Shown here one piece after another: positions 4,243 through 17,664 of a stretch of 41,824 nucleotides of DNA. The DNA is from a virus. The stretch is taken from positions 1 through 41,824 of IMG/VR virus record IMGVR_UViG_3300033571_003641; one strand, given 5' to 3'. Below the pieces are notes generated by a model. It made no database searches. It saw only the letters and a program-made list of their open reading frames with translations, and was not told the origin of the DNA. Positions within the stretch are counted from its first letter, which is position 1; each line of letters opens with the position of its first letter. A program made the translations under genes and the position numbers.

Positions 4243-4431
4243 ATGACTAGAAAAGCACTCCCCAATCCCAAAACTACCGATAAGATTGAGCAGATTGCCA
4301 AGGAGCTTGGCGCTACCCGTGGCTCAATATACCAGTGGCGTCGTCGCGGGGTTCCTGCGGCGTGGCGTATTAAAATTGTTAGCGCGTCCAATAGCAAAGT
4401 GAAACTGTCTGATTTCCCAGAGGCGTTATGA
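4243..4431 (+). CDS. YdaS/Cro-like helix-turn-helix repressor, 62 aa
   Basis: Residues 11-45 form a compact HTH: KIEQIAKELGATRGSIYQWR followed by RRGVPAAWRIKI. The W-x-R-RGVPA-x(2)-I ending is typical of YdaS/Cro-like phage regulators. GGGTGGGG lies close before the ATG. It sits directly after operator site C and opposite the leftward promoter, the place a lambda Cro-type switch protein occupies. It is the leading candidate to bind the repeated operator family. That link is inference. Confidence 0.8.
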   Translation: MTRKALPNPKTTDKIEQIAKELGATRGSIYQWRRRGVPAAWRIKIVSASNSKVKLSDFPEAL

Positions 4432-4661
4432 GCGACGAACTTCACGATCACGCGGCTAACTACAGTAGCCTGTCTTACACAAAAGCTGACTGGAGGACGA
4501 AAATGCTTCAGTCTCTCCCGGAAGATTTGCCGATGTATCAAGTCAAGCGTTTCGAGTTTTACAAGCAGGCCGGTATTCCTGAACACGTTTACACTGATCT
4601 GGATGCTCAGGTGCTTCACCTTGCTTTACGCGCCCGCTTTCCGGGAATGAACCAGTGGTAA
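4428..4661 (+). CDS. Hypothetical protein, 77 aa
   Basis: It starts in an ATGA overlap with the repressor-like gene, so it is translationally coupled. The sequence is mixed helical with YTKADWRTKMLQSLPEDLP and a C-terminal LALRARFPGMNQW. No domain was recognised. Its stop region overlaps the start of the VRR-NUC gene. Confidence 0.7.
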   Translation: MSDELHDHAANYSSLSYTKADWRTKMLQSLPEDLPMYQVKRFEFYKQAGIPEHVYTDLDAQVLHLALRARFPGMNQW

Positions 4662-5053
4662 TTAAGCGCAGACAGGTGGAATCCGGTATTCAGCGCGGTA
4701 TTGTCCAATACATCCGTTCGGTGCTGCCAAGGGCTGTTCTTATGGCGATTCCTAACGGATCTCAGCGCACTGCCTCTGGACGTCCCGCTAACGCTGTTCC
4801 GGGTTTCTTGCCGGGCGCTCCTGATTTGATATTGGCTTTGCCTAACAAGGAGGTGATCTGGATAGAGGTAAAATCACCTATTGGACGCTTAAGTGATAAT
4901 CAGAAACACGTTCACGCCATGCTTGAAACGATAGGACATAAGATCATCTTGGCGCGTTCGATTGACGATATTCGTGAGGCGTTTGCGTATTACGGCATAA
5001 AAACGAAGGATAGCTGGAATGGAGAACCTAGCGATGGCGAAAGACGCGATTAA
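4655..5053 (+). CDS. VRR-NUC domain nuclease, 132 aa
   Basis: The PD-(D/E)XK-type VRR-NUC domain is complete: PNG at 33-35, GAPDLILALP with Asp 57, then VIWIEVKSP with Glu 71 and Lys 73, and LSDNQK with Gln 83. Stand-alone phage VRR-NUC proteins are structure-specific nucleases thought to resolve branched DNA or recombination junctions. The GTG start at 4655 overlaps the upstream stop, with GGGAA before it. The C-terminal end overlaps the GcrA-like gene by 20 nt. Confidence 0.88.
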   Translation: MVIKRRQVESGIQRGIVQYIRSVLPRAVLMAIPNGSQRTASGRPANAVPGFLPGAPDLILALPNKEVIWIEVKSPIGRLSDNQKHVHAMLETIGHKIILARSIDDIREAFAYYGIKTKDSWNGEPSDGERRD

Positions 5054-5627
5054 GTGGCAGCCCGAATGGGTTGAACACGCGAAGAAGATATTGGCTGCCG
5101 GTGGCACGATGGGAGAAGCGGCCAACGGAATCAACCACAAGTTTGGCGTCGGGATCACCCGTAACGCCATGATTGGCAAACTGCACAGGCTCAAGGCTGA
5201 GAACAAATTAAATCTCCCGCCGCCTGAGCAATGGAAGAATAAGTCCATGGAGACTTTTGTTAGCTATTGGCATAGCGGCATATCCAGCACGGACATTGGC
5301 CATTACTTTGGTGTTGAGAGCAGCACAATTCGTGACAAAGCGTATAAATATGGTTTGACGCCTAGAGGCACTGAGACTGGCTGGCGCGCTCTTAAAAAGA
5401 ATGTTCCCAAGACGCCAAAAGTCCAGTCTGACGGTATTAGCAAGCAGACTACGTTTCCAAACCCGGATGCTAAAGCTGTGCTATTTGAAAATTTAACTAG
5501 CCGCATGTGTCGGTTCGTTATAGGTGATAAACCTTTCTATTTTTGTGGTGCCGAAGTCGAACTTGGTTCGCCCATCCCTTACTGCTCTTATTGCAGAAAA
5601 GTGATGTATGTGCCTGCGAAGCGTTAG
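5034..5627 (+). CDS. gcrA: GcrA-like cell-cycle regulator with two HTH segments, 197 aa
   Basis: Residues 8-53 match the GcrA N-terminal HTH (KWQPEWVEHAKKILAAGG, then GVGITRNAMIGKLHRL). Residues 158-192 match its sigma-70-interacting C-terminus (SRMCRFVIGDKPFYFCG, then PYCSYCRKVMY). Between them, at 74-110, lies a second HTH-like repeat (FVSYWHSGISSTDIGHYFG). In Caulobacter, GcrA binds RNA polymerase sigma-70 and stimulates promoters carrying methylated GANTC sites. The start at 5034 follows the GAATGGAG motif; the ATG at 5019 belongs to that motif. It is followed directly by a DnaA-like gene. A role in redirecting host transcription is inference. Confidence 0.88.
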   Translation: MAKDAIKWQPEWVEHAKKILAAGGTMGEAANGINHKFGVGITRNAMIGKLHRLKAENKLNLPPPEQWKNKSMETFVSYWHSGISSTDIGHYFGVESSTIRDKAYKYGLTPRGTETGWRALKKNVPKTPKVQSDGISKQTTFPNPDAKAVLFENLTSRMCRFVIGDKPFYFCGAEVELGSPIPYCSYCRKVMYVPAKR

Positions 5628-5637
5628 GGAGGAGAAA

Positions 5638-6195
5638 TTGGCTACAGAAAAAGAATTAGTGGATTCTAACGATATTATTCATCTGTTAGAAAAACACTAC
5701 GAAACGACTGGGCTTAAGGTTTTGCGTATTGCGGCTTCTGAGTTGCGTCGTTTGTATAAGCTTCTTGATCAGGAAGTTTTGCGTATTGAAAACGGGGAAC
5801 CTGAAAACCTAACGATCCGTATGAGTGTAGTCCTTAAAATGGCGCATCGTTATTTTGGTATGCCGATTGATGACATAACGTCTCACAAGCGTTCGTTGAA
5901 ATACATGGCTCCCCGGCAAGTCTCAATATACGTTGCCCGCAAGCTTACGGATTTATCTACGCCACAAGTTGGTAAATGGTTTGGTGGGCGTGATCACACG
6001 ACAGTTATTCACGCCTGCAAGAAAGTGGATGAGGAGATAGGGAAGGGTAACAAACAGTGGATCAAATACGTCGATGAACTTTCTGCGCTGTGCAAGAAAG
6101 AAGCGGCTATTGAACATGCTCGAATAGAGGAAGCCAAAAGATGTCAGCAGATAACGAACCTGTCCTTGAGGACGCGTCCCGCGTTGACGCCGTAA
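5638..6195 (+). CDS. DnaA domain IV-like DNA-binding protein without ATPase, 185 aa
   Basis: Residues 60-135 match the DnaA C-terminal domain: MAHRYFGMPIDDITSHKRS, MAPRQVSIYVARKLT, and the DnaA signature STPQVGKWFGGRDHTTVIHA (107-126). The AAA+ domains I-III are absent. The protein should bind DnaA boxes but cannot hydrolyse ATP or open an origin alone. The TTG start at 5638 is chosen because GGAGGAG lies 3-9 nt upstream; a more upstream ATG would run into the GcrA-like gene. It may mark the phage origin or compete with host DnaA. Confidence 0.88.
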   Translation: MATEKELVDSNDIIHLLEKHYETTGLKVLRIAASELRRLYKLLDQEVLRIENGEPENLTIRMSVVLKMAHRYFGMPIDDITSHKRSLKYMAPRQVSIYVARKLTDLSTPQVGKWFGGRDHTTVIHACKKVDEEIGKGNKQWIKYVDELSALCKKEAAIEHARIEEAKRCQQITNLSLRTRPALTP

Positions 6196-6464
6196 CGCTT
6201 GAGACTGTGGATAAGTGCATGGGTATTGTGGACGAAGTTTGCCGTGAAAACGGTTTTGATGCTTCAGCCATGATATTCATGTCTGTCCATGTCGCCGCCC
6301 ATCTTATGGCTCGTGGATTGTTCTTTGCCGATGGCGCTGAAGGGCGCGACAGGCTGCGTAACAAGATGATGGATAATGTTGCGGAAATCCTTGATTCGGC
6401 CCGCCAGCATATTGATCAGTCAGAGCGTGAGCTTAACCAGATCCAAATCATCAGGCCGAATTAG
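6141..6464 (+). CDS. Hypothetical helical protein, 107 aa
   Basis: No family was recognised. Helical segments such as VDKCMGIVDEVCRENGFD and NKMMDNVAEILDSARQHI suggest a small four-helix protein. The start lies inside the DnaA-like gene (55-nt overlap), so expression is probably coupled. An exact DnaA box (TGTGGATAA, 6206-6214) falls within its early codons. Confidence 0.7.
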   Translation: MSADNEPVLEDASRVDAVTLETVDKCMGIVDEVCRENGFDASAMIFMSVHVAAHLMARGLFFADGAEGRDRLRNKMMDNVAEILDSARQHIDQSERELNQIQIIRPN

Positions 6465-6479
6465 TAATCCTCAAATGAC

Positions 6480-6516
6480 GACGGCGGCTTGACATGCGCC
6501 AGCCGCCGTCTATTCT
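6480..6516 (+). promoter_or_regulatory. Rightward promoter with overlapping GC hairpin
   Basis: TTGACA (6489-6494), 16-bp spacer, TATTCT (6511-6516). The spacer and -35 lie in a 10-bp perfect inverted repeat (6480-6489 with 6501-6510, loop of 11), which could be an operator or a weak hairpin for upstream transcripts. No T-run follows, so it is not a clear terminator. A second hairpin (GGTT-GGGG/CCCC-AACC, about 6524-6547) follows near the expected transcript 5' end. Confidence 0.55.
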
Positions 6517-6578
6517 GGGAAAGGTTCGGGGCTGCAACCCCTAACCGGATGACACTGGAAAGCTAAAGGAACAAAGCT

Positions 6579-6809
6579 ATGCCATCGGCTAGCAAGATAA
6601 ATACGTCCAAAAACCCCCGGAATCAAGATGCTGCCTACATAGAGGCGGACATCCTTACCAATTTGCGACTAGCTGCTGAGTTTTCTCGCCTAGCCGAAGA
6701 TCACGGCGCTTTGTTTGACGATAACGGTTTCCGCTATTGCGTGGATCGTTTCCTTGAACATGCGCGTCTTGTGTCCACGAATCTCAAGAAACTTAGGGAG
6801 ACTAGCTAA
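6579..6809 (+). CDS. Hypothetical protein, 76 aa
   Basis: The N-terminus is polar and basic (SASKINTSKNPRNQ). A helical body follows: DILTNLRLAAEFSRLAED and CVDRFLEHARLVSTNLKKL. No domain was recognised. AAGGA lies 10 nt before the ATG. It is the only gene between the 6489 promoter and the structured noncoding stretch. Its last codons form a hairpin with that stretch (TTAGGGA 6793-6799 with TCCCTAA 6825-6831). Confidence 0.7.
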   Translation: MPSASKINTSKNPRNQDAAYIEADILTNLRLAAEFSRLAEDHGALFDDNGFRYCVDRFLEHARLVSTNLKKLRETS

Positions 6810-7174
6810 ACCTTGGCTATTGTTTCCCTAACCAGCCACCAGCTTAGGTGAGCCGCCCGGATCATGTATCCGATTGAGCGGGGACAAAACCGGGAATACT
6901 AAAAATGGGGGCTGTCCCGGCCCGGTGGGAAATCTTGCGGAAAGATCCACCATACCTGACGAATGCAGACGATACACAAGTCCACATGGCGTGGCCGGAG
7001 CGGCAAGGGGATGCCGTTAGGGTGAACAGCCCATCCTAGTCAGGGAATACCAGAACCGCTGCCGAACCCGTCCGTGACAGGCCCAAATGGCCTATCCACA
7101 TTCAAGTTAGTCCTTGAGGTGGTATCGGAGCATACGGGAGAGGGAGCTATGCCAAAAATCAGGAGAATGTAAAC
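6810..7174 (+). ncRNA. Structured 365-nt noncoding stretch; candidate RNA or replication origin
   Basis: No frame with a ribosome site was found. The stretch is full of short perfect inverted repeats. Examples are 6853-6881 (CCGC-x-CGGAT/ATCCG-GCGG), 6881-6918 (GGGACA/TGTCCC), 6924-6951 (GGTGG-ATCTT/AAGAT-CCACC), 7001-7016 (CGGCA/TGCCG), 7079-7093 (AGGCC/GGCCT) and 7130-7152 (GCATA/TATGC). It contains one 8-of-9 DnaA box (7092-7100) about 0.9 kb after the DnaA-like gene. It does not match tmRNA, RNase P, tRNA or any riboswitch I can recognise. The strand is assumed from the flanking genes. Confidence 0.4.
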
Positions 7175-7438
7175 ATGGAAGATCACAAATACACCTACCC
7201 GGATTTAGTGAGCGTAGAGGACTGGCTGAATGCTAAGGGCTACACTGGAGAGGCGGGCGCTTGTCATCAGGCCATGAGCCTTATTCGTAAGCAGGAAAAT
7301 CAAAATCAGATATTAAAATCGGCTCTAAAGAAATTGTGCGAGTCCGTGGAATTGGCTCAACAGGCCGGATGTATAAATGGATGGGATTTTGCGATTACTC
7401 TCCCGAAAGCCTACGAAGCTCTAAAGGAAAATAAATGA
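7175..7438 (+). CDS. Hypothetical protein, 87 aa
   Basis: AGGAGAATG precedes the start. The sequence has YPDLVSVEDWLNAKGYTGEA, then a coiled-coil-prone centre (IRKQENQNQILKSALKKL), then a helical tail. No domain was recognised. It overlaps the next gene in an ATGA arrangement, so it belongs to the nuclease-helicase unit. A seven-codon frame (7149-7172) overlaps its ribosome site and might be a leader, but nothing supports that strongly. Confidence 0.7.
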   Translation: MEDHKYTYPDLVSVEDWLNAKGYTGEAGACHQAMSLIRKQENQNQILKSALKKLCESVELAQQAGCINGWDFAITLPKAYEALKENK

Positions 7439-7842
7439 GTAATGATGGCCATAACCCAATGCGCTGGAACTGCGAAACCAAAGGGTGCTTTAACAAACGC
7501 AAGCGCCCCAAGATTGAGGTGTTCCATAAGAACTTCCCCGGCAAGATTAACTTCTCAGACGTTGATGGGATCGTGGAGATATCCGGCAACGCTCTGATGC
7601 TGGAATGGAAAGACAAAGATGTTCCGATCCCGACAGGGCAGGCCATTATGTATGAGCGGTTGAGTAAACATGGGCCAATTACGGTAATGTGCGTAGCTGG
7701 TGATGCTGAGACGATGGAAGTCTATCAATACGGTATATTTCACAAGGGTAAGTTCACTGGTTGGAAGGACGCCGACATGGAGTTGATCCAAGATAAAATT
7801 CGCAAGTGGACACATTACGCCTTGGATCATCCAAGAGTTTAG
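7435..7842 (+). CDS. PD-(D/E)XK nuclease-like protein, 135 aa
   Basis: Residues 10-30 have WNCETKGCFNKRKRPKIEVF with a Cys pair. The core DVDGIVEISGNALMLEWKDK gives Asp 44, Glu 57 and Lys 59, the spacing of a PD-(D/E)XK nuclease, followed by a Gln (69) as in resolvase-like and VRR-NUC relatives. From memory, similar small proteins lie beside phage replication helicases. Nuclease activity is predicted, not shown. It is directly upstream of the SF2 helicase. Confidence 0.65.
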   Translation: MSNDGHNPMRWNCETKGCFNKRKRPKIEVFHKNFPGKINFSDVDGIVEISGNALMLEWKDKDVPIPTGQAIMYERLSKHGPITVMCVAGDAETMEVYQYGIFHKGKFTGWKDADMELIQDKIRKWTHYALDHPRV

Positions 7843-7849
7843 GTATAAA
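7821..7849 (+). promoter_or_regulatory. Promoter before the helicase with a perfect palindrome at the -35
   Basis: TTGGAT (7822-7827), 16-bp spacer, TATAAA (7844-7849). The -35 lies inside a perfect 15-bp palindrome at 7821-7835 (CTTGGAT-C-ATCCAAG), a likely operator. The -10 region also reads TATAAATA, resembling a T4 late box by chance or design. The helicase start is 40 nt downstream. Confidence 0.5.
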
Positions 7850-7889
7850 TATAAAAGATCACTACAACTGCGTTTGAATGGAGAAAGCA

Positions 7890-9449
7890 ATGCAGTTACG
7901 CGATTACCAAGCGGAAGCTATAAATAATCTTAGAGAAGCCATAACTCGCAAAGAAAAGCCTGTTCTGTCTGCGCCCACAGGATCAGGTAAAACGCTTATT
8001 GCGTCTGAAATATTTTCTATGGCTAGGGCCAAAGAAAAGCGTGTTGTGTTTGTCGTTCCGTTTCTGTCGTTGATCAATCAAACATGGAAGGCGTTTGAGC
8101 GCGCCGGTATTGATGGCCGTGAAATGGGAATCATACAGGGGGATCACCAGCTTACGGATTACAGGAAGCCTGTCCAGATTGCCTCTGCTCAGACTTTGGA
8201 GCGTCGTCCAGTTCTTCCTAAGGCTGACATTGTTATTTTTGATGAGTGCCACATCAATCGTAAGATTTATCAGCGTTGGATGAATGAAGCCCCTGATGTG
8301 TATTTCATAGGATTGTCCGCTACGCCTTGGGCTGTTGGCATGGATAACCTGTGGACACAGATGATCATTGTGTCGACGTTGAGTGAGCTTATTCAGAAGG
8401 GGCATTTGTCGCCGTTTAAGTATTTTGCCCCGGCCCAACCTGATCTGTCTAAGGTTCGTGTTCGACTTGGCGACTATGTCGAATCAGATCTTGAGAAGGT
8501 TATGGGTAGCTCTGATCTCATTGCTGACATCGTGAATACATGGCGTGAAAAGGCTGAAAGCCGTCCTACATTTTGCTTTTGCGTAAACCGCCGCCACGCC
8601 CAAGAAGTTCAGGCGCAGTTCTTATTGGCTGGTGTCCCGGCTGGATATGTTGACGCCAATACGCCTGTGGATGAGCGTGAGGCTCTGGTTGAGCAGCTTC
8701 GCCGTGGTGATCTGAGCGTCATCTGCAATATCGGAACGATGACGACTGGCGTTGATGCGCCTTTCGTGTCGTGCATCATTCTGGCTAGGCCCACCAAATC
8801 TGAGATGCTTTATATCCAGATCATTGGCCGTGGGTTACGGACTGATGCGGCCTCTGGGAAATCGGATTGCTTGATTCTGGATCACTCAAGCACAGCCCTG
8901 AACCTTGGCCGCCCGGATGAGATTTATTACGAGACGTTTCGATCCGGCAAAGAGGCCAAGGCCGGGGACAAAAGGAAAAAGGATAAAGAGGAGAAAAAGC
9001 CGAAGCTTTGCCCTCATTGTAAATTTGTCCTGCTCCCCAAGGAAAACGACTGCCCTTCCTGCGGCTTTGTATTCCCGCCGCCTGTCAGTGATGTTGAGGT
9101 TGGCGCTGGGGAGTTGACTGAACTTGGCCACGCTGGCGTTAGGGGTAAGGCTAAGAAGGATGAGAAGCAGTCTTTTTATTCTGGGCTGCTCTGGATTGCC
9201 AATGACAGGGGCTACAGTAAGGGCTGGGCGGCCCACAAATACAAAGCCAAGTTTGGTGTGTGGCCCCGGCTTCTTGACGAAACGCCTGCCTTCCCTGATG
9301 CTTTAGTCTTTAATTATGTGAAGTTCAGCAACATCGCTTGGGCCAAGTCCAAGAATAACCCGAATAATTCGGCTAAACAGACGCTGTCTACCGAATCAAT
9401 CCGTAACCGGATACGCAATCAATTCTCCCATGGGAGGGATCATGGCTAG
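7890..9449 (+). CDS. SF2 DEAD/DEAH-box helicase with zinc ribbon, 519 aa
   Basis: RecA-like domain 1 has the Q-like LRDYQ motif (3-7), Walker A SAPTGSGKT (27-35), DECH (118-121) and SATP (143-146). Domain 2 contains NRRHAQEVQ, GTMTTGVDAP and the motif VI region QIIGRGLRTD. A zinc ribbon (CPHC-x10-CPSC) follows near 374-391, then a C-terminal module for DNA or partner binding. This is the phage DEAD-like replication helicase type that unwinds DNA. The start at 7890 follows GAATGGAG; the ATG at 7878 is part of that motif. It may partner the PD-(D/E)XK protein upstream. Confidence 0.93.
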   Translation: MQLRDYQAEAINNLREAITRKEKPVLSAPTGSGKTLIASEIFSMARAKEKRVVFVVPFLSLINQTWKAFERAGIDGREMGIIQGDHQLTDYRKPVQIASAQTLERRPVLPKADIVIFDECHINRKIYQRWMNEAPDVYFIGLSATPWAVGMDNLWTQMIIVSTLSELIQKGHLSPFKYFAPAQPDLSKVRVRLGDYVESDLEKVMGSSDLIADIVNTWREKAESRPTFCFCVNRRHAQEVQAQFLLAGVPAGYVDANTPVDEREALVEQLRRGDLSVICNIGTMTTGVDAPFVSCIILARPTKSEMLYIQIIGRGLRTDAASGKSDCLILDHSSTALNLGRPDEIYYETFRSGKEAKAGDKRKKDKEEKKPKLCPHCKFVLLPKENDCPSCGFVFPPPVSDVEVGAGELTELGHAGVRGKAKKDEKQSFYSGLLWIANDRGYSKGWAAHKYKAKFGVWPRLLDETPAFPDALVFNYVKFSNIAWAKSKNNPNNSAKQTLSTESIRNRIRNQFSHGRDHG

Positions 9450-9972
9450 GGCTGGCAGGAAGCGTAAAGAAGGTGATCGTTATCCCGGTGGCCAGATCCG
9501 CCCGGCAGAGGAAGGGCCGTCGCCGTCCGCCATAAAGCGCCTTCGCAACGCTGCGATACTTGGCATGGCTGATCCTCAGTGGGGTAGCGTGGCTGGGCTT
9601 TGCTACCTTCAAAGGATGATTGACGATATTGAGTATGAAGCCGCTAAGAGGTTTGGGGATCTCCATGCCCAATACATCGGGGTAATTGGCGGCCCCCGTC
9701 AGCCCAAGACATCTACCGGGGAGCGCCCTACGCGGGCTACTGAGGTGGACGTTGATACGGAACAGGGTGATCGGGAGGCCAAACGCCACATCGCCGTTAT
9801 GACGCGCTATAACGACGCACATACGGCATTGCTTATGGTTAGCCCTGTCACTGAAGCTGATCTGATTCGGTTTTGCGCTATGCCGGGCGAATCACCGAAT
9901 GGATATGAGGGCATGGTTCGTGTCCGCACTGGCCTTCGTGCGTTGGCTACCCTGTGGAAGATCACGAAATAA
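9442..9972 (+). CDS. Hypothetical protein with basic N-terminus, 176 aa
   Basis: The start at 9442 has GGGAGGG 4 nt upstream and overlaps the helicase end by 8 nt. The product opens MARAGRKRKEGDRYPGGQI, a basic segment I associate with uncharacterised alphaproteobacterial phage and prophage proteins. A helical, charged body follows with DREAKRHIAVMTRYNDAHTA near the middle. No catalytic motif was found. It ends immediately before a terminator for the opposite strand. Confidence 0.75.
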   Translation: MARAGRKRKEGDRYPGGQIRPAEEGPSPSAIKRLRNAAILGMADPQWGSVAGLCYLQRMIDDIEYEAAKRFGDLHAQYIGVIGGPRQPKTSTGERPTRATEVDVDTEQGDREAKRHIAVMTRYNDAHTALLMVSPVTEADLIRFCAMPGESPNGYEGMVRVRTGLRALATLWKITK

Positions 9973-9995
9973 AAAAAGCCCCGCCGAAGCGGGGC
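9971..9995 (-). terminator. Leftward intrinsic terminator with UUCG tetraloop
   Basis: Read on the minus strand, GCCCCGC-TTCG-GCGGGGC is followed by seven T (9977-9971). This gives a 7-bp GC stem closed by a C(UUCG)G loop with a U-tract. It would stop transcripts from the leftward genes at 10783-10182. It has no U-tract in the rightward direction. Confidence 0.85.
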
Positions 9996-10045
9996 AATAC
10001 CAAGGGAGGAAAATCAATCCTCTCACAATATTTAAATTCAGTCAA

Positions 10046-10074
10046 ATTTGACTAAGTGTCAGACAGATTATAGT
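10046..10074 (+). promoter_or_regulatory. Rightward promoter with operator (site D) for the candidate small RNA
   Basis: TTGACT (10048-10053), 15-bp spacer, TATAGT (10069-10074). The -35 and spacer overlap an inverted repeat at 10046-10064 (ATTTGACT-AAG-TGTCAGAC), a copy of the early operator family. No gene starts within the next 100 nt on this strand; an intrinsic terminator follows instead. Confidence 0.5.
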
Positions 10075-10079
10075 TAGGA

Positions 10080-10182
10080 AACAGAACCCATCTGGTTCTC
10101 CTTTCTAACTTATTCGCCGGTTCCCTATCCCGGCGATATGCCCCGCCAGCGTCATCTCCATTCCGCTGGTGGGGCCTTTTTT
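10080..10182 (+). ncRNA. Candidate small RNA with Shine-Dalgarno-complementary loop
   Basis: The stretch starts about 6 nt after TATAGT and ends in a T-run. It folds into three hairpins: 10083-10099 (AGAACC/GGTTCT), 10114-10136 (TCGCCGG/CCGGCGA, 9-nt loop) and the terminator 10140-10175. No open frame with a ribosome site was found on this strand. The terminator loop TCATCTCCATTC and the linker TCTCCTTTC are complementary to Shine-Dalgarno sequences. The loop matches the GAATGGAGAT motif that precedes many phage genes. This suggests an antisense regulator of phage (or host) translation. Confidence 0.5.
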
Positions 10183-10183
10183 T
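10140..10183 (+). terminator. Rightward intrinsic terminator
   Basis: A 12-bp stem (10140-10151 with 10164-10175, one G-U pair) encloses the 12-nt loop TCATCTCCATTC and is followed by seven T (10177-10183). It ends rightward transcription of the 4243-9972 block and of the candidate small RNA. Its tail overlaps the stop codon of the convergent leftward gene. Confidence 0.85.
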
Positions 10184-10385
10184 ATTTACGATACTTCTCG
10201 TATGTTGCCTTGGCCTTAGCAAAGTGGCCATTGGTTTCTGATTCGATTTCAGCTTCCGCAAACGGCTGTAAGGCTTCCATCAGTTCGTCGGCCTTCAACT
10301 GAAGCTTGGCTATTTGCCAGCGCAATTCTGGATCTTCTGATTTACGGCTACGAAGTGTGGTGGCGTCAAAGATCGTGCGTTTCAT
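10182..10385 (-). CDS. Hypothetical helical protein, 67 aa
   Basis: The sequence is helical and charged: ELRWQIAKLQLKADELMEAL then ESETNGHFAKAKATYEKYRK, with short coiled-coil potential. It overlaps the upstream gene by 20 nt and is the last gene of a three-gene leftward unit. No domain was recognised. Confidence 0.65.
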   Translation of the reverse strand: MKRTIFDATTLRSRKSEDPELRWQIAKLQLKADELMEALQPFAEAEIESETNGHFAKAKATYEKYRK

Positions 10386-10599
10386 ATTTCGATAACCTTT
10401 GAGCCAGTTCTTCGTTTTTGCGTTTCAGCCGATCAAGCTTGCGATCCAAAGTGCCGATCTTTTCGTATTGCTGCTGGAGGCCCATGGCGGCCCCCAACAT
10501 GATTGCCTGCGCCAATTCCAGCTTTTGTTCCTGATCCACCCGGAACGTCTCAAGCTGTCTGATTAGGGGCAGGATTTCGATCTTAGGCTTGCCCGGCAT
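10366..10599 (-). CDS. Coiled-coil hypothetical protein, 77 aa
   Basis: The start is placed at 10599 (MPGKPKIEILPL), which lies at the end of the upstream gene; upstream ATGs give improbable overlaps. Residues 45-77 form a likely coiled coil (YEKIGTLDRKLDRLKRKNEE). It could be a small oligomeric adaptor. No catalytic features were found. Confidence 0.65.
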   Translation of the reverse strand: MPGKPKIEILPLIRQLETFRVDQEQKLELAQAIMLGAAMGLQQQYEKIGTLDRKLDRLKRKNEELAQRLSKYETHDL

Positions 10600-10783: not shown

Positions 10784-10897
10784 TTTCTGTCTCCATTCTG
10801 GTGTCTCCCCGGCGCTACGCTACCCGCGCTGTCGGCATTCCGGCTGTTGGCCCGCGCGAACCGTGGCCTTCTCAGGGAGTGAGGCACAATCACTTTT

Positions 10898-10950: not shown

Positions 10951-10976
10951 TACTGTATCAACTGATGGAGATTGAT

Positions 10977-11318
10977 ATGAGCAACGTCAAGAACGCCCCC
11001 GAAGGTCGCTACTTTACCGAACATGGATATAGCGAAAGCTATCCGTGGATCGTTAAGAAGGTTAGCCCGTCTGGCAAAACCATCACGCTGGCGCGGGTTG
11101 AGACAAAAAACGATCCGGATTGGAAACCCAATATTTTGCCGGGCGGTTTTTGCGGCCATTGCGATAACCAGCACGCGCAAACGTGGATTTTTGATAGCAT
11201 CTGCCCGATGTGGACAAAAACAATCCGTTTAAACAAATGGGGGCAGTGGGCTCATAAGGGCGTTCGCTTCACGGAATCCCCAAACGGCCCGTATTATTTC
11301 TATGATTACAATTTTTAG
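10977..11318 (+). CDS. Hypothetical protein with Cys/His-rich centre, 113 aa
   Basis: The start at 10977 has GATGGAG 6 nt upstream. The sequence is beta-rich: SYPWIVKKVSPSGKTITLAR, then GGFCGHCDNQHAQTW, then KGVRFTESPNGPYYFYDYNF. The CGHC-x3-H stretch may bind a metal. It is alone between promoter E and a terminator, so it is a single-gene unit under the early operator. Function unknown. Confidence 0.75.
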   Translation: MSNVKNAPEGRYFTEHGYSESYPWIVKKVSPSGKTITLARVETKNDPDWKPNILPGGFCGHCDNQHAQTWIFDSICPMWTKTIRLNKWGQWAHKGVRFTESPNGPYYFYDYNF

Positions 11319-11324
11319 GAATCT

Positions 11325-11343
11325 GGGGCTTTGGCCCCTTTTT
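11325..11343 (+). terminator. Short intrinsic terminator
   Basis: GGGGC (11325-11329), TTTG loop, GCCCC (11334-11338), then TTTTT. The 5-bp GC stem with a U-tract lies just after the 11318 stop and just before promoter F, separating two single units. Confidence 0.6.
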
Positions 11344-11348
11344 CTTGC

Positions 11349-11376
11349 TTGACTGTTATCTTACAATCTGTATAAT
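11349..11376 (+). promoter_or_regulatory. Rightward promoter with operator (site F)
   Basis: TTGACT (11349-11354), 16-bp spacer, TATAAT (11371-11376), the strongest promoter match in the early region. The operator copy at 11358-11376 (ATCTTACA-ATC-TGTATAAT) covers the spacer and the -10, the same layout as site E. The next gene starts 29 nt downstream with GAATGGAG. Confidence 0.75.
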
Positions 11377-11405
11377 CAAATCATCAAAGTGAATGGAGAA
11401 TCACG

Positions 11406-11672
11406 ATGAAATCTGAACTTGCTGATCGTTACGCCGCCCTGAAAATTGAACTGGAAGCGGCTCAGGCTGCTCTGGATGCGGTTAAGGCTGAAATCATCGC
11501 TACTGGCTGCGATATTCTGGAAGGCGATGACTTCCGGGTTAACGTGGGCCTTCAGGAGCGCACGACTATATCGGCCAAAGAAGCTGAGAAGGTTCTGCCC
11601 CCGGAACTGTATGGCGTCCTCGCCAAGACGACGATGTTCCCTGCTGTTCGCTATAAAGCCATCAAGGCTTGA
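11406..11672 (+). CDS. Hypothetical phage protein, 88 aa
   Basis: The N-terminal half is a long helix (RYAALKIELEAAQAALDAVK). The C-terminal half is beta-rich with LEGDDFRVNVGLQERTTISA. From memory this two-part layout recurs in short phage proteins of unknown role. GAATGGAG lies 7 nt before the start. It is the first gene of the rightward unit from promoter F. Confidence 0.75.
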   Translation: MKSELADRYAALKIELEAAQAALDAVKAEIIATGCDILEGDDFRVNVGLQERTTISAKEAEKVLPPELYGVLAKTTMFPAVRYKAIKA

Positions 11673-11673
11673 T

Positions 11674-11862
11674 ATGACTGCCGCTTGGAGACGTAAGGAA
11701 CCTCGCCACTTTGATCGCCATTCCCAACTGACAAAGGCTGAGGCAGCAATGTATCAGCTTGTGATACAGGGGATGGCGATTGAAGATATTTGCAAGGCCC
11801 TGAGCATCACCCGTGAGACGGCCAAAAACCGTATGCAGATCATCAGGGAGAAAACTAGGTGA
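11674..11862 (+). CDS. LuxR/GerE-type helix-turn-helix protein, 62 aa
   Basis: After a basic N-terminus, residues 18-60 read LTKAEAAMYQLVIQGMAIED, then ICKALSITRETAKNRM. This is the LuxR-type HTH pattern (LT-x-x-E, V-x-G-x5-I, V/ETAK-N-x(2)-I). The start at 11674 follows the upstream stop by one nucleotide with only weak AAGG before it, so it is coupled. It is a stand-alone DNA-binding domain, probably a regulator of phage or host promoters. Confidence 0.75.
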   Translation: MTAAWRRKEPRHFDRHSQLTKAEAAMYQLVIQGMAIEDICKALSITRETAKNRMQIIREKTR

Positions 11863-12155
11863 GAAGTTCCCCCATCCCGTTCGCCATGCTTGGGCTTGGC
11901 ATTATCATAGGCGCTGGACTGACTCTTGCGGCGTCACCTACCCCCGTATGGAATGTGAAGTGTCAAACTTACGGCGTGTCGCATAAGGTAGCTACGGCCT
12001 ATGTCCTGAAGCCTCCTCCGGCTGAGGTGGTTTACAAGGCTTGCCCGCAAGTAACAGAAAAGGCCGAACCTGTTAGCGAGCCGGAAATAACTAAAGCGGA
12101 CGAAAGCAAGCCGCGCCGCCATCGGCGTCATAGAGTGAGGAGGTATTGGCGATGA
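11859..12155 (+). CDS. Membrane-anchored protein with basic tail, 98 aa
   Basis: The GTG start overlaps the upstream TGA. Residues 6-25 form a transmembrane or signal-anchor helix (IPFAMLGLGIIIGAGLTLAA). A periplasmic segment with two Cys (KCQTYG, YKACPQ) follows, and the C-terminus is very basic (RRHRRHRVRR). A membrane anchor with a cationic end could suit a lysis or spanin-like role, but there is no lipobox and no partner gene. Function is open. Confidence 0.65.
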   Translation: MRSSPIPFAMLGLGIIIGAGLTLAASPTPVWNVKCQTYGVSHKVATAYVLKPPPAEVVYKACPQVTEKAEPVSEPEITKADESKPRRHRRHRVRRYWR

Positions 12156-12466
12156 CTGACTACGCCAAAATAATCGACAATCTCCGAAATGAACCAAATT
12201 ATCAAAACTTGTGGATTTATGAAGCCGCCGACGAATTAGAGGCGCAGGCGCGACGGATTGCGGATTTAAGCAAAGAAGCTGACATGATGCACAGCGAGTA
12301 TAAAACAGCCGCCGCCCGCATCGCGGAACTTGAAGCGGCGCTGAAACCGTTTGCGGACTTAGCTGACGAATGGGGAGTTACCGAAGGCGACGAGCGTTTC
12401 AGCATACAAGCGTATGTATTTCCTGACGAACTCCGCGCCGCCCGCGCCGCTTTGGAGGAAAAGTGA
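12152..12466 (+). CDS. Helical protein, first of a tandem paralogue pair, 104 aa
   Basis: GGAGG lies before the start at 12152. Residues 3-35 (DYAKIIDNLRNEPNYQNLW, then EAADELEAQARRIADL) are closely matched by the next gene, showing tandem duplication. The centre is coiled coil (AARIAELEAALKPFADLADE). This copy carries an extra stretch of about 25 residues that the next gene lacks. Function unknown. Confidence 0.7.
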   Translation: MTDYAKIIDNLRNEPNYQNLWIYEAADELEAQARRIADLSKEADMMHSEYKTAAARIAELEAALKPFADLADEWGVTEGDERFSIQAYVFPDELRAARAALEEK

Positions 12467-12699
12467 TGAGTAACTACAAAAAAATTATCGACAACCTTCG
12501 CGATGAGCCGAACTATCAAAACTTGATGATAGTTGAAGCTGCTGATGCGATTGAAGCACAGGCCGCCCGCATCGCGGAGCTTGAAGCGGCGCTGAAAGCT
12601 GCGTTGAGGTACATTGAGAACACCGAAGACGAATTAGGTATCGAATTAGACTGCCGTTTCGCCGCCCGCGCCGCTTTGGAGAAGGATAATGCCAAGTAG
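12466..12699 (+). CDS. Helical protein, second of a tandem paralogue pair, 77 aa
   Basis: The start at 12466 shares one nucleotide with the upstream stop, with GAGGAAA before it. NYKKIIDNLRDEPNYQNLM and EAADAIEAQAARIAELEAAL mirror the upstream gene. The C-terminal ends (AARAALE) are also shared. The pair may form hetero- or homo-oligomers through the coiled coil. Nothing points to a biochemical role. Confidence 0.7.
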   Translation: MSNYKKIIDNLRDEPNYQNLMIVEAADAIEAQAARIAELEAALKAALRYIENTEDELGIELDCRFAARAALEKDNAK

Positions 12700-12925
12700 C
12701 CCTGAAAAGAAAAAAGAACAGCGTAAGCTTAGGCATGAAAGGGTAAAGGCCAAGATGGCTGCTGATCCTGAATATGCTGCCAAATATCGTGATTCTGTCA
12801 AAGCGGCCCAAAAGCGGTATGAGGCTAAAAAGAAGCTTCAACGGTTCTCCCGCGAGTCATCTGGCATTGTTGGCTCTGGTAAACCCGGCAGGATTGTTGC
12901 ACTTTGCGGGTGGATGAACTGGTAA
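12689..12925 (+). CDS. Small basic hypothetical protein, 78 aa
   Basis: The N-terminal half is Lys/Arg-rich and helical (EKKKEQRKLRHERVKAKMAA, YRDSVKAAQKRYEAKK), typical of nucleic-acid binding. From memory such segments also head HNH endonucleases, but no HNH core follows; the tail is Gly/Ser-rich ending in CGWMNW. It overlaps the upstream gene by 11 nt, with GGAGAAGG before its ATG. It may be a remnant of a homing nuclease N-terminus. Confidence 0.6.
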   Translation: MPSSPEKKKEQRKLRHERVKAKMAADPEYAAKYRDSVKAAQKRYEAKKKLQRFSRESSGIVGSGKPGRIVALCGWMNW

Positions 12926-12946
12926 TTTGCCTTGAGGATTGATTAA

Positions 12947-13210
12947 ATGTCTGATATAAAAAGCATTCTTGCGGAGCGCGGCAAAACTCACGGCGATTAC
13001 GCTCGCCATGCTGGGACAACCCAGTGCCTAAAGTCTGTTATGCGGAATACCCGCAACTGGGGAGATTTAACCCCCTCGCAAACCGAATGCCTTGAGATGA
13101 TCGCCCACAAAATAGGCCGGATACTCAGTGGTGATCCAAACCATACAGATCACTGGGACGATATCTCTGGTTACGCTACGCTGGTAGCTGAACAGCTTAG
13201 GAAGCGGTAA
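12947..13210 (+). CDS. DUF6378-like phage protein, 87 aa
   Basis: The sequence matches a conserved phage family: ILAERGKTHGDYARHA, then LTPSQTECLEMIAHKIGRIL, then SGDPNHTDHWDDISGYATLV. The conserved His and acidic residues (THGDY, DHWDD) could bind a metal, and the fold recalls small MazG-like or nucleotide-handling helical proteins. Activity has not been assigned as far as I know. GAGG precedes the start. It closes the small-gene block before the packaging genes. Confidence 0.8.
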   Translation: MSDIKSILAERGKTHGDYARHAGTTQCLKSVMRNTRNWGDLTPSQTECLEMIAHKIGRILSGDPNHTDHWDDISGYATLVAEQLRKR

Positions 13211-13238
13211 TCCAATAGCTAAAGCTTAACCACAATCG

Positions 13239-13266
13239 TTGACATACCATTCAAATGAGGTATTCA
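13239..13266 (+). promoter_or_regulatory. Candidate promoter for the packaging block
   Basis: TTGACA (13239-13244), 16-bp spacer, TATTCA (13261-13266). Transcription would start near 13273, only about 2 nt before the ATG at 13275, so the terminase mRNA may be nearly leaderless. GAGG lies too far upstream (14 nt) to be a strong ribosome site. Confidence 0.45.
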
Positions 13267-13274
13267 ATTACCAC

Positions 13275-13655
13275 ATGCCTAAAGGTGTTAAGGGAAATAA
13301 CCACAATCCAAATGGAAGGCCGGTAGGAATCCGCCAGCCCCAGACGACTGTTGGTTACAAGACTATTGCCGATATCCGGGCCTACTGTAAGCAATGGACG
13401 TTCGATGCGGTTGATGTGACTGTTAAAATCCTGAAGGATGAGGGAGCCACTCCTGCTGCTAGGCTGGTTGCCGCCCAGATGCTTCTGGATCGTGGTTGGG
13501 GTAAATCAGCCCAGATCATTGAAGGGACGATCAACCACTATGATCGGATGAGCGACGATGAACTTATCAAACTTGTCGAGGGAACAGTTGTTGCAACTGG
13601 CCCCAATAGCGGCAGAGTTGAGTTTGAGGAAGTCGAGGAGGAACTGCCAGAGTGA
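13275..13655 (+). CDS. terS: Probable terminase small subunit (DUF5681-type N-terminus), 126 aa
   Basis: It begins MPKGVKGNNHNPNGRPVG, matching the K-G-x-S-GNPNGRP motif of DUF5681 proteins, which often lie beside large terminases. A helical middle (FDAVDVTVKILKDEGATPAA, then RLVAAQMLLDRGWGK) and an acidic C-terminus (FEEVEEELPE) follow. It lies directly upstream of the large subunit, overlapping it by 98 nt. Small subunits recognise the packaging site and regulate the motor. The ATG start is preferred over an in-frame TTG at 13239, which forms the promoter -35. Confidence 0.72.
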   Translation: MPKGVKGNNHNPNGRPVGIRQPQTTVGYKTIADIRAYCKQWTFDAVDVTVKILKDEGATPAARLVAAQMLLDRGWGKSAQIIEGTINHYDRMSDDELIKLVEGTVVATGPNSGRVEFEEVEEELPE

Positions 13656-15267
13656 TCTGGCTACCTTCGTCCATGAAGCTTGGAAAGTCGTAGAGCCGGG
13701 AAACCCTCTGATCTGGGGATGGCACATGCAGGCCATCTGCGATCATTTGGAGGCTGTGGCCAATGGGGAGATCAACCGGCTTTTGATCAACGTCCCTCCG
13801 GGTTTCTCCAAGTCCCTGCTGACGTCTGTGTTCTTTCCTAGCTTCGTTTGGGCCAATGATCCGCATATGCGGTTCCTGTGCGCCTCGCATAGCCAGAACC
13901 TAGCCATCCGCGACAGCACCAAGATGCGGCGTCTGATCCAGTCCGAATGGTATCAGGAGCGCTGGGGCAAGGAAGTCGTCCTGACGGGCGATCAGAACGC
14001 CAAAACTAAGTTCGAGAACACAAAGGCAGGGTTTCGTGAGGCAGTCGCCGCTGGAAGCATTACGGGTAGCCGTGGCGATATTGTCATTATCGACGATCCT
14101 CATTCTGTTGAGTCTGCGTCGTCTGAGGCGATGCGGGCGACGACTGCGGAATGGTTCCTTGAGGCGGTTCCTACCCGTCTGAATAACCCGGCTGAATCAG
14201 CCATCATCGTGATCATGCAGCGTCTCCATGAGGAGGACGTTTCCGGTATTATCATTGATAAACAACTGGGTTATGAGCATTTGATGCTCCCCATGAAGTT
14301 TGAGCCTGATCGTAAGTGCGTCACCTCGATTGGCTTTGAAGATCCTCGTGAGGATGATGGAGAGCTTCTGTTCCCTGAGCGCTTCCCGCTTGAGGTGGTT
14401 GAGCGCGATGAACGGGTTATGGGGCCTTACGCGGCAGCCGGGCAATTCCAGCAGCGTCCGACAGTCAGGGGCGGTGCGATCATTCGCAGGCAGGACTGGA
14501 TGCTCTGGGATCAGGCTGAGGCGAATGCCCATGGCGTCAAGGATGGTGCTTCTTACCCGGCAATGGATACGATTATAGCCAGTCTGGACACTGCCTATAC
14601 TGAGAAGCAGGAGAACGACGCCAGCTACCTGACGATCTGGGGCGTCTGGCAGCGCAGCGCTGCGGCGGCCTTTGCCCATGTCAACCGGGACGGAACGCGC
14701 TTTGAGCATGTTGAGGAGCGGGACACTGTGCCTGCCGTCATGCTCATGTATGCCAAGGAGATGCGCCTAGCTATCCATGGCGAGAACCTTGAGCCTGAGC
14801 CGGGTGAGACTGAAACAGCCTTCCGCATCCGCCAGCGCAACGCTTGGGGCCTGTGCGAGTGGGTGACGCACCATTGCAACCAGTTCAAGGTGGACAAACT
14901 CCTGATAGAAGCCAAGGCCAATGGTATTACGGTTGGGCAGGAACTGAAGCGCCTGAACCGGGTGAACCGCTGGAGCGTTGAGCTTGTTAATCCGGGTGCC
15001 TTGGACAAGGTTGCCCGCGCCTATGGTATCCAATCGACATTCACCAACGGACAGGTTTATGCTCCTGATAGGGACTGGGCTGAGAAAATAATCGCACAAT
15101 GTGAAGCTTTTCCTAAAGGAAAGTTCGACGACGGAGTCGATAGCACCACCCAAGCCCTGCGTTATCTCAGAGAACGTGGCTTGTTAGACAGGCAAGAGGA
15201 CATCGCCGCCCGCGCTGCGTGGGAAGCTGGCCAGCCTATTAAGAAAAAAATACTTTACGACGTATAG
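13558..15267 (+). CDS. terL: Terminase large subunit, 569 aa
   Basis: The ATPase domain has a Walker A-like NVPPGFSKS (78-86) and Walker B DIVIIDDPH (174-182), then a coupling region near VIMQRLHEEDVSG. The RNase H-like nuclease has Asp near 344 (SLDTAYT), an acidic LLIEAKANG near 448-456 and DDGVD near 524. The enzyme cuts concatemeric DNA and pumps it through the portal. The start overlaps the small-subunit gene by 98 nt. If the true start were later, about 30 residues of an uninformative N-terminus would be lost. Confidence 0.95.
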   Translation: MNLSNLSREQLLQLAPIAAELSLRKSRRNCQSDLATFVHEAWKVVEPGNPLIWGWHMQAICDHLEAVANGEINRLLINVPPGFSKSLLTSVFFPSFVWANDPHMRFLCASHSQNLAIRDSTKMRRLIQSEWYQERWGKEVVLTGDQNAKTKFENTKAGFREAVAAGSITGSRGDIVIIDDPHSVESASSEAMRATTAEWFLEAVPTRLNNPAESAIIVIMQRLHEEDVSGIIIDKQLGYEHLMLPMKFEPDRKCVTSIGFEDPREDDGELLFPERFPLEVVERDERVMGPYAAAGQFQQRPTVRGGAIIRRQDWMLWDQAEANAHGVKDGASYPAMDTIIASLDTAYTEKQENDASYLTIWGVWQRSAAAAFAHVNRDGTRFEHVEERDTVPAVMLMYAKEMRLAIHGENLEPEPGETETAFRIRQRNAWGLCEWVTHHCNQFKVDKLLIEAKANGITVGQELKRLNRVNRWSVELVNPGALDKVARAYGIQSTFTNGQVYAPDRDWAEKIIAQCEAFPKGKFDDGVDSTTQALRYLRERGLLDRQEDIAARAAWEAGQPIKKKILYDV

Positions 15268-15279
15268 TAGATACTATAC
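15262..15279 (+). repeat. Perfect hairpin at the junction before a homing endonuclease gene
   Basis: GTATAGT-AGAT-ACTATAC overlaps the terminase stop codon and is flanked by copies of TACGAC (15256-15261 and 15284-15289). It lies 10 nt before the HNH-AP2 gene, which has no recognisable Shine-Dalgarno. It may be an insertion scar or a control element for that gene. Confidence 0.6.
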
Positions 15280-15289
15280 AGTCTACGAC

Positions 15290-15811
15290 ATGAAATACGC
15301 ATACAATCTTACTTATGAGCGCGCCCATCAGCTTCTTGAATACAATCAGGAGACTGGTGATCTGGTTTGGAAGAAGCGCGGTGTCCAGCCGTTTGATTGG
15401 GGAACTGCCGGGAAAGTGGCTGGATTTGTTGATGAGAAGGCGGCTGGGCGCAAGTGCGTTCGCATAGACAAGAAGCTGTATTTGGCCCACCGGGTTATCT
15501 GGCTTATGGTTACGGGATCGTGGCCTTCCATGGACATTGATCACAAGAATGGTAATGCCGGAGACAATCGCTTTGATAACCTTCGGTTGGCAACTGTCGC
15601 CGAGAACAATCGGAACACAGGCGTTTCAAAAAACAGCACGACTGGGTTTAAAGGCGTTCATTTTTACAAGGCAGGCCAGAAGTATCAGGCCCACATCACC
15701 GTTAACCGTAAGCGGATTCATTTAGGCTATTATGCGACAGCGGAAGAAGCCCACGCCGCTTATTGTAAGGCTGCTGCTGATCTGCATGGCGATTTCAGTC
15801 GCGTTGCATAA
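15290..15811 (+). CDS. HNH homing endonuclease with AP2 DNA-binding domain, 173 aa
   Basis: The HNH_3-type core shows H67 (LAHRVIW), the IDHKNGNAGDNRFDNLRLAT block with D84-H85 and Asn 97, then NNRNTG. Residues 117-170 form an AP2-type DNA-binding domain (GFKGVHFYKAGQKYQAHITV, GYYATAEEAHAAY). Such free-standing genes cut cognate DNA lacking the insertion and spread by repair. It sits between terminase and a small hypothetical gene, with a hairpin at its left edge. Confidence 0.93.
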   Translation: MKYAYNLTYERAHQLLEYNQETGDLVWKKRGVQPFDWGTAGKVAGFVDEKAAGRKCVRIDKKLYLAHRVIWLMVTGSWPSMDIDHKNGNAGDNRFDNLRLATVAENNRNTGVSKNSTTGFKGVHFYKAGQKYQAHITVNRKRIHLGYYATAEEAHAAYCKAAADLHGDFSRVA

Positions 15812-15927
15812 GCGTAGGAGATAGCATTCGTGGCGAATGTGCGGGGACGTTGGGGGCTAACGGCCTTTGAGCCAACTGCACATCGTAACTCAACCCTCAT
15901 GGGCCACGACGGTTATTAAGGAACAAA

Positions 15928-16284
15928 ATGACGGATAATAACCGACTTACCGACTTCCCCGCCCTTGTCGAACTGGCCAACAGGCTGGAGGGCAAGGATC
16001 GAAAGACATGCGAACTGGCGTTATACACGCTGAAGAAGCAGGATGAGCGGCTGGCCAAGCGGGACGCCCGCATTGCTGAGCTTGAGGCATTTCGCCGGGA
16101 CGCTCTGAAGGAAGTGACTGAACTGGCTAGAGAGTGCGGCGGCCTTAGGGCTGTGATTCTGCCGTTTGCTGGAGTGGCCGATAGCATCCCTGCCCATCTT
16201 GATGATGACTATATGTGGCCTGATTGCTTTCCTGCTGGCGACATTCGCGCTGCTGATGCAGCTATAAAAACCCACCCGAAGTGA
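15928..16284 (+). CDS. Hypothetical protein with coiled coil, 118 aa
   Basis: Residues 10-65 are helical, with a coiled coil (KKQDERLAKRDARIAELEAF). The C-terminal half has LRAVILPFAGVADSIPAHLD and a Trp/Pro-rich acidic tail. The RIAELEA stretch recalls the 12152/12466 pair. AAGGAAC precedes the start. The 116 nt before it hold no gene. Confidence 0.7.
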   Translation: MTDNNRLTDFPALVELANRLEGKDRKTCELALYTLKKQDERLAKRDARIAELEAFRRDALKEVTELARECGGLRAVILPFAGVADSIPAHLDDDYMWPDCFPAGDIRAADAAIKTHPK

Positions 16285-16317
16285 TACTTTTGGGTAGGTA
16301 AAGTATGGGAGATAGGG

Positions 16318-17664
16318 ATGGAATTGGCCAATGGCCGGGTAGTTCTCCACGCTGGAGACTGCTTGGAGGTTCTGGCGTCATTGCCGGAGAACAGCATTGA
16401 CGCGGTGGTGACTGATCCGCCTTACGAACTTGGCTTCATGGGCAAGTCATGGGACGCCAGCGGAATTGCTTTCTGCCCTGATACTTGGCGTCTGCTTTGG
16501 CGAGTTTTGAAGCCGGGCGGCCATTTGGTAGCGTTTGGCGCTCCTAAGAATTATCATCGGCTTGCTTGCGCGATTGAAGATGCGGACTTTGAGATACGCG
16601 ACAGCTTGATGTGGGTTTTCGGGACTGGGTTTCCGAAATCTATGGATGTCAGCAAGGCGATTGATAAGGCTGCTGGCGCAGAGCGCGATGTTCTGGGCGT
16701 ATCCGGTAAAAGCGGGGCGGCCCGTTCATGTATGGCGGGTGACTTTGCCGGCGGTGAATACTATGAAACAGCCCCGGCAACAGACGAAGCCAAACAATGG
16801 GACGGCTGGGGCACAGCTCTAAAGCCTGCGTATGAGCCAATCGTCCTCGCCCGCAAGCCGTTAAGCGAAAAGACAGTCGCGGCGAATGTTTTGCGATGGG
16901 GAACCGGCGCGTTGAATATTGATGCGACGCGGATTGCTCATAACGAGCCAATCAAAACCATGAAGGCGCAAGATGCTGGTAACTTGGTTTATGGGCAAGC
17001 TGGACGCAGGGCAGAAACGACTGAGTTAAAGGAAGCGGGCCGATGGCCTGCCAATCTCTGCCACGATGGAAGCCAGCAAGTTCTAGACTTGTTTCCGCAA
17101 TCCACTGGCAACAAGGGCATACACGGCACAATGGGCGGCGGTCGTTCAGGCGGTATTAAAGGCGCTGCGAAGCAGCGTGAATACGATTTTGCCGGTTATG
17201 GTGACGAAGGTTCCGCAGCCCGTTTCTTCTTTTCGGCAAAATTAAATGACGAAGAACGTGGCGCGGTGTTTGGTTCAGAATATGAAAATGCCGCAAACGA
17301 ACTGGAGAAAATTGCCAGAGAGTGGGATGAACAAGATAAGGAGCGCCTAGCTTATGCGCGTTGGTTTGCCTCAAAGCTAAGGGCAAAGGCTCAGCCGATT
17401 GAGAACGATGAAACGCCTCGCTTTCATTACAGCGCCAAGGCCAGCAAAGCAGACAGAGCAGGCTCAAAGCATCCGACAGTCAAGCCGGTAAGCCTGATGC
17501 AATGGCTTGTCCGCATGGTTACGCCGCCTAACGGAAAGGTGCTTGATCCCTTCGCGGGTTCTGGCACAACTGGCATGGCTGCGGTTAATGAGGGATTTGA
17601 GGCTGTTCTGATTGAGCGTGAACTTGAGTATCAATCGGATATAAGGAACCGGCTCCATGGCTAA
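16318..17664 (+). CDS. Beta-class adenine/N4-cytosine DNA methyltransferase, 448 aa
   Basis: Catalytic motif IV DPPY is at 33-36, before the AdoMet-binding motif I FAGSGTT near 412-418. This order defines the beta class that also contains CcrM. Motif X-like HPTVKPVSLMQWL lies just before motif I. The large middle (about 100-380) is the target-recognition region and differs from CcrM, so specificity cannot be read. No restriction partner lies nearby, so it is a solitary methylase. It may protect phage DNA or alter host epigenetic control. Confidence 0.93.
   Translation: MELANGRVVLHAGDCLEVLASLPENSIDAVVTDPPYELGFMGKSWDASGIAFCPDTWRLLWRVLKPGGHLVAFGAPKNYHRLACAIEDADFEIRDSLMWVFGTGFPKSMDVSKAIDKAAGAERDVLGVSGKSGAARSCMAGDFAGGEYYETAPATDEAKQWDGWGTALKPAYEPIVLARKPLSEKTVAANVLRWGTGALNIDATRIAHNEPIKTMKAQDAGNLVYGQAGRRAETTELKEAGRWPANLCHDGSQQVLDLFPQSTGNKGIHGTMGGGRSGGIKGAAKQREYDFAGYGDEGSAARFFFSAKLNDEERGAVFGSEYENAANELEKIAREWDEQDKERLAYARWFASKLRAKAQPIENDETPRFHYSAKASKADRAGSKHPTVKPVSLMQWLVRMVTPPNGKVLDPFAGSGTTGMAAVNEGFEAVLIERELEYQSDIRNRLHG

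Follow-up and report, generated by a model that had tools for sequence, protein, structure and literature searches.

The 41,824-base virus record IMGVR_UViG_3300033571_003641 (here the window, taken over its full length and labelled G000 among the genomes compared) carries, in an early rightward operon, a gene for a GcrA-type sigma-70 cofactor (5034-5627) followed by a gene for a stand-alone DnaA domain IV protein (DnaA-IV; 5638-6195). Genes of both types recur in other phages close to DNA methylases of the family of PhiLM21_p027, which is present in two sister phages of the window. The identity, order and conservation of these genes and their neighbourhood with the p027 methylase family are results of the comparison. 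The explanation that we consider best, at a probability of roughly 0.55, is that the phage GcrA and DnaA-IV would act as early regulators and that the p027-type methylase of the sisters would hold GANTC sites methylated.

A GcrA-like protein had been proposed at 5034-5627 in the original prediction, and the profile check agreed, with a score of 57.5 bits against Pfam GcrA (PF07750; gathering cut-off 26.9) and a match in two stretches. The protein has tandem GcrA-type DNA-binding domains (residues ∼8-55 and ∼66-110) and a C-terminal sigma-interacting domain (SID; ∼151-195). In the alignment with C. crescentus GcrA chains the first DNA-binding domain retains TRNAxIGKxHRL; the recognition helix of the second (66-110) has diverged, with ESSTIRDKAYKY in place of TRNAVIGKVHR. 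The SID, residues 151-195 (CRFVIGDKPFYFCG...YCSYCRKVMYVP), aligns with the C. crescentus SID. The predicted structure (mean pLDDT 78.7, below 50 in the linker) contains two domains of three helices each, followed by the SID at the C-terminus; Foldseek matched the SID to 5yix_B (rmsd 1.9 Å over 50 columns, probability 0.98, E 0.38) and placed GcrA 7ye1_G among the best structural neighbours (probability 0.97, E 0.04). Because direct comparison of the two halves of the protein gave weak similarity, we base the duplication on the two Pfam stretches and the structure model. Most other aligned phage GcrAs have a single DNA-binding domain where the window protein has two. Against the NCBIfam model for the cell-cycle GcrA equivalog (NF050816) the window protein scores 46.7 bits, far under the cut-off of 280. 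The breadth of phage GcrA was taken from profiles, because tblastn with GcrA gave no match in named phages. PHROG families 16311 and 12262, listed as of unknown function, match GcrA-type proteins at L042:11973-12452 and window:5034-5627, which suggests that these families are GcrA-like.

The neighbouring 185-residue protein (5638-6195) matches Bac_DnaA_C with 85.4 bits (cut-off 31.5) and has no match to the AAA+ motor (domain III), so that the earlier description of it as domain IV without the motor is correct. It keeps the DnaA-box-binding signature GGRDHTTV, its residues 65-132 align with E. coli domain IV (1j1v), and it scores 85.9 bits against the NCBIfam DnaA equivalog (cut-off 343.9). 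The two genes belong to one operon, as had been proposed, with 10 bp between them and the same orientation, and the pair is kept in three sister genomes (G001, G002 and G003). Adjacent gcrA and dnaA-IV genes were also found in other phages, for example with a spacing of 42 bp in L187 and of 75 bp in L191.

The sisters also show that the window is incomplete. The window is a linear record. Two of the sister records, G001 (62,289 bases) and G003 (62,167 bases), are circularly permuted with respect to the window, position 62137 of G001 corresponding to window 20742 and position 1 to window 21173; G002 is a fragment record. Most aligned blocks of the window and G001 are 71-94% identical. The window thus covers roughly two thirds of a genome of ∼62 kb, and genes beyond its left edge are missing from it. 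In G001, ∼430 bp past the counterpart of window base 3, there is a methylase with an NPPF motif (41932-42711, minus strand) that is 50-54% identical to PhiLM21_p027, with homology across the whole enzyme; G002 also carries a p027-type methylase, with one TGA in frame. PhiLM21_p027 methylates GANTC and has no sequence similarity to CcrM (PMC5537653). The G001 and G002 enzymes are therefore the likelier methylase partner of the pair, their GANTC specificity being predicted from PhiLM21_p027. A separate observation is that an unassigned protein (..KIFxPAYWPLFKTxELRRFDY..) adjoins the p027-type methylase in phages that otherwise differ (L042:10726-11415, L050:10813-11415, G001:41251-41880).

Relatives of the p027-type methylase were found on 388 viral contigs and in 309 stretches of cellular genomes, and among the best 80 of these 309 the titles are nearly all Alphaproteobacteria. 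Among 42 viral contigs with lengths of 19.5 kb or more, Bac_DnaA_C was present in 21 and GcrA in 15 at the Pfam cut-off, with both in 8 (two of them sisters of the window). Our main set comprised 43 dereplicated loci of at least 8 kb from which the window's own clade was excluded. DnaA-IV was encoded in 22 of these loci, GcrA in 15 and both in 6, often within a few kb of the methylase and on the same strand. In typical layouts (L042, L050, L066 and L043) dnaA-IV precedes the methylase by 150-250 bp and gcrA follows it 1.3-3.5 kb downstream; in L052 gcrA ends ∼10 bp before the methylase. On the methylase tree the presence of GcrA and that of DnaA-IV each changed state ∼13 times. One further locus, L179, was first counted as a trio and then left out, its methylase being on a very long branch.

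Control loci gave much lower frequencies. Among 43 viral loci of PHROG 67, the family of a different phage methylase, DnaA-IV was found in 2 (Fisher test against the p027 loci, p 1.6e-6), GcrA in 0 (p 1.4e-5) and both in 0, and neither gene was found in 25 YqaJ loci (0/25 each). Loci selected for DnaA-IV contained GcrA in 7 of 60 cases (p 0.007 against the p027 loci) and the methylase in 3 of 60. The ratio of observed to expected GANTC was 0.57 in contigs with the p027 methylase, against 0.53 in contigs that have DnaA-IV but not the methylase (p 0.09). Since the ratio is similar with and without the methylase, GANTC depletion is uninformative as a sign of the enzyme, and because depletion is about equal in the two sets, the DnaA-IV set serves as a rough host-matched control. 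The p-values are a guide only, because the tests were designed after the pattern had been noticed in G001 and dereplication was at the DNA level alone. As an observation in its own right, GANTC is the most avoided palindrome of G004 (L021-L023; 42 against 167 expected), which has a DnaA-IV gene and no p027 methylase match.

The original prediction had nominated a methylase within the window (16318-17664) as a possible third member of a Caulobacter-like circuit, a counterpart of CcrM that would act on GANTC. Its assignment to the beta class stands: the protein is an N6/N4 DNA methylase (104.9 bits in Pfam, cut-off 26.7) in which DPPY precedes the S-adenosylmethionine (SAM) motif, the same order that speaks for CcrM. 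CcrM is moreover its best solved-structure match, and methylase specificity is not readable from sequence. That match, however, is mainly through the SAM core, and the comparisons gave no kinship to CcrM past it: the enzyme scores 72.8 bits on the CcrM equivalog model, whose cut-off is 830, and CcrM residues 258-366, C-terminal to the SAM core, have no counterpart in the window enzyme, which ends at residue 448. It is instead a full-length member of PHROG 67 (243.6 bits) with matches in 797 phage records, most of which belong to phages of Mycobacterium, Gordonia and Arthrobacter; 366 of the records reach at least 80% cover. It covers 98% of the mycobacteriophage enzymes, and two aligned copies are 55% identical. 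A homologue is present in G003, absent from G001 and not seen in the G002 fragment, and GcrA is missing from the PHROG 67 loci described above. We therefore rejected this enzyme as the CcrM counterpart, a role that now seems very improbable; most likely it is a generic phage accessory enzyme, perhaps for anti-restriction. Of the proposal that one phage holds all three circuit types and thereby might take over host replication timing and transcription, the GcrA/DnaA-IV pair remains, and the p027-type methylase of G001 and G002 would take the place of the third.

All functions in the window phage we infer from sequence, and on that basis the following sequence of events would account best for the data. 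The early rightward operon would produce the GcrA-type cofactor and the stand-alone DnaA domain IV. GcrA, through its intact SID, most likely binds domain 2 of the main host sigma factor and, with two DNA-binding domains, could steer host RNA polymerase to promoters that favour the phage: its own and perhaps those of host S-phase genes. DnaA-IV most likely binds DNA resembling DnaA boxes, as an initiator or transcription regulator without an ATPase of its own. It would rely on host replication proteins, because profile searches for DNA_pol_A and DnaB_C, the polymerase and helicase families searched, found neither in the four phages (G000-G003). In the sisters the p027-type methylase would keep GANTC methylated during infection and thereby hold GcrA-dependent promoters in the methylated state, and the 16318-17664 enzyme would act separately, most likely in protection from restriction.

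Several observations weigh against this explanation. The p027 methylase is unmatched in the window, which ends ∼430 bp before its site in G001, and G003 keeps the gene pair without a p027-type methylase. Once the methylase is given, the presence of GcrA and that of DnaA-IV are uncorrelated on the methylase tree (sign test, p about 1). Loci in cellular genomes show only a weak association (GcrA 5/70, DnaA-IV 3/70), and part of the association with GcrA may stem from hosts in common. No cluster of DnaA boxes conserved among the sisters was found: with at most one mismatch there are 15 boxes in the window, where permuted words give 7.1, without clustering and without a clear excess in the sisters, and a DnaA-box cluster as phage origin was accordingly dropped. 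The non-coding DNA of the phage is not enriched in GANTC, and a conserved GANTC near 11398 was judged a ribosome-site coincidence, as it lies 8 bp ahead of a start codon. Thus no DNA target yet supports the regulatory reading, and the lack of a DnaA-box cluster and of promoter-like GANTC enrichment counts against a simple circuit.

Some of this evidence would also fit with GcrA and DnaA-IV being unrelated early regulators that are neighbours by chance, GcrA as a methylation-independent switch and DnaA-IV as a binder of the phage origin, with no link to GANTC. The diverged recognition helix of the second GcrA domain, the G003 pair, the lack of correlation on the methylase tree and the lack of GANTC enrichment in the non-coding DNA all suit that account. 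Against it stand the far higher frequency of both genes beside p027 methylases than in control loci and the TRNAxIGKxHRL kept in the first DNA-binding domain, and we regard it as possible but doubtful. Less probable still is a role as decoys, in which DnaA-IV would titrate its target and block host oriC and GcrA would sequester sigma-70, so that host replication and transcription stop. A DnaA-IV that is missing the AAA+ motor could indeed bind DnaA boxes without initiating; yet a mere sigma trap has no need of the DNA-binding domains that GcrA retains, and similar DnaA-IV genes lie beside replication-type genes in other phages.

The gene families of the phage make an alphaproteobacterium the most likely host. 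At the DNA level the window has no match in named phages. It encodes terminase, portal and head genes, and its early genes form a leftward arm with a YqaJ exonuclease and an ERF annealing protein and a rightward arm that begins at 4243. The features are as follows.

1-3, no strand: left edge of the fragment, with window base 3 corresponding to G001:43141 and the p027-type methylase at G001:41932-42711 (minus strand).
2128-2754, minus strand: ERF single-strand annealing protein (Pfam ERF, 65.9 bits).
2747-3391, minus strand: YqaJ-type exonuclease of the leftward early operon (Pfam YqaJ, 90.4 bits).
4243-4431, plus strand: opening gene of the rightward early operon, for a small YdaS/Cro-like HTH protein (24.4 bits against Pfam YdaS_toxin, under the cut-off of 30; gene order matched in L003 and L005).
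4428-4661, plus strand: 77-residue protein of the operon, function unassigned (homologues at the same place in L003 and L005).
4655-5053, plus strand: VRR-NUC domain nuclease, overlapping the start of gcrA (Pfam PF08774, 37.4 bits, cut-off 23.8).
5034-5627, plus strand: GcrA-type sigma-70 cofactor (Pfam GcrA in two stretches, alignment, predicted structure).
5638-6195, plus strand: DnaA domain IV protein (Bac_DnaA_C, alignment, homologues in G001, G002 and G003).
6141-6464, plus strand: 107-residue protein, the next gene of the operon, function unassigned (homologues at the same place in L003 and L005).
7878-9449, plus strand: RadD-like superfamily 2 helicase, PHROG 16 (profile matches).
16318-17664, plus strand: beta-class DNA methyltransferase, PHROG 67 (Pfam, PHROG and CcrM comparisons).

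Some other features of these genomes were recorded. CCWGG and GTAC are nearly absent from the window (1 against 89 expected and 2 against 83 expected), G001 and G003, as if the genome had been shaped by restriction at those sites. G003 encodes a C5-cytosine DNA methylase (L005:14163-15497) that is absent from the corresponding place in the window. Besides its GcrA-type sigma cofactor, G003 also has a protein that contains a sigma-70 region 4 domain (L005:18979-19734; Pfam, 63.4 bits). Beside the terminase of the window lies a protein with HNH_3 and AP2 domains (15290-15811), where the DNA match to G001 breaks (15263, then 15944), a pattern as for a mobile homing endonuclease. At 17912-18012 ARAGORN called an unusual tRNA whose anticodon has four bases (ggct), where Rfam gave nothing at the gathering score, and a long protein of the tail region (36171-38990) contains collagen-like GPTGPTG repeats.

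Parts of this gene set are known from other systems. PhiCbK-like Caulobacter phages carry a GcrA homologue (gp222), proposed to push the host into a replicating state (PMC3556154). They share with the window a phage-borne Pfam GcrA (L034, 88.5 bits) but are ∼200 kb siphophages with a T7-like polymerase, and the duplicated DNA-binding domain sets the window GcrA apart; a PF08299 search found no DnaA-IV in phiCbK. GANTC methylases have been described in sinorhizobial phages (PMC5537653), and in Sinorhizobium phage PhiLM21 the p027 methylase lies ∼3 kb from a DnaA-C protein, p033, a likeness to the sisters of the window. Unlike the window phage, PhiLM21 is temperate and has a DnaB helicase; a profile search found no GcrA in PhiLM21 itself, and GcrA has been reported in some phiLM21-like prophages (PMC12429752). 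Bradyrhizobium phages ppBjS10J-1 and ppBeUSDA76-2 share with the window a rightward arm that carries DnaA-IV and, diverging from it, a YqaJ/ERF arm, and GcrA was not found in either record. The Caulobacter GcrA/CcrM/DnaA circuit shares the GcrA and DnaA domain IV families with the window, whose proteins differ in scoring far below the NCBIfam equivalog cut-offs. The 16318-17664 enzyme resembles PHROG 67 methylases such as Mycobacterium phage Buck gp100 (full-length member, 55% identity) but has ∼60 extra residues near 305-366. Phage GcrA and phage CcrM-like methylases are named together in the discussion of PMC9437464. GcrA, a GANTC methylase and a DnaA-like protein are each known singly in alphaproteobacterial phages; in the limited library searched, we found no report of the recurrent three-gene neighbourhood.

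Our more speculative suggestion, held tentatively, is that alphaproteobacterial phages may repeatedly have assembled a miniature methylation-gated S-phase circuit, a non-CcrM GANTC methylase with GcrA and a motorless DnaA, which would turn on host replication genes and phage promoters at any stage of the host cell cycle. The recurring three-gene neighbourhood suggests that phages control the alphaproteobacterial cell cycle directly, and it supplies a set of small, testable proteins.

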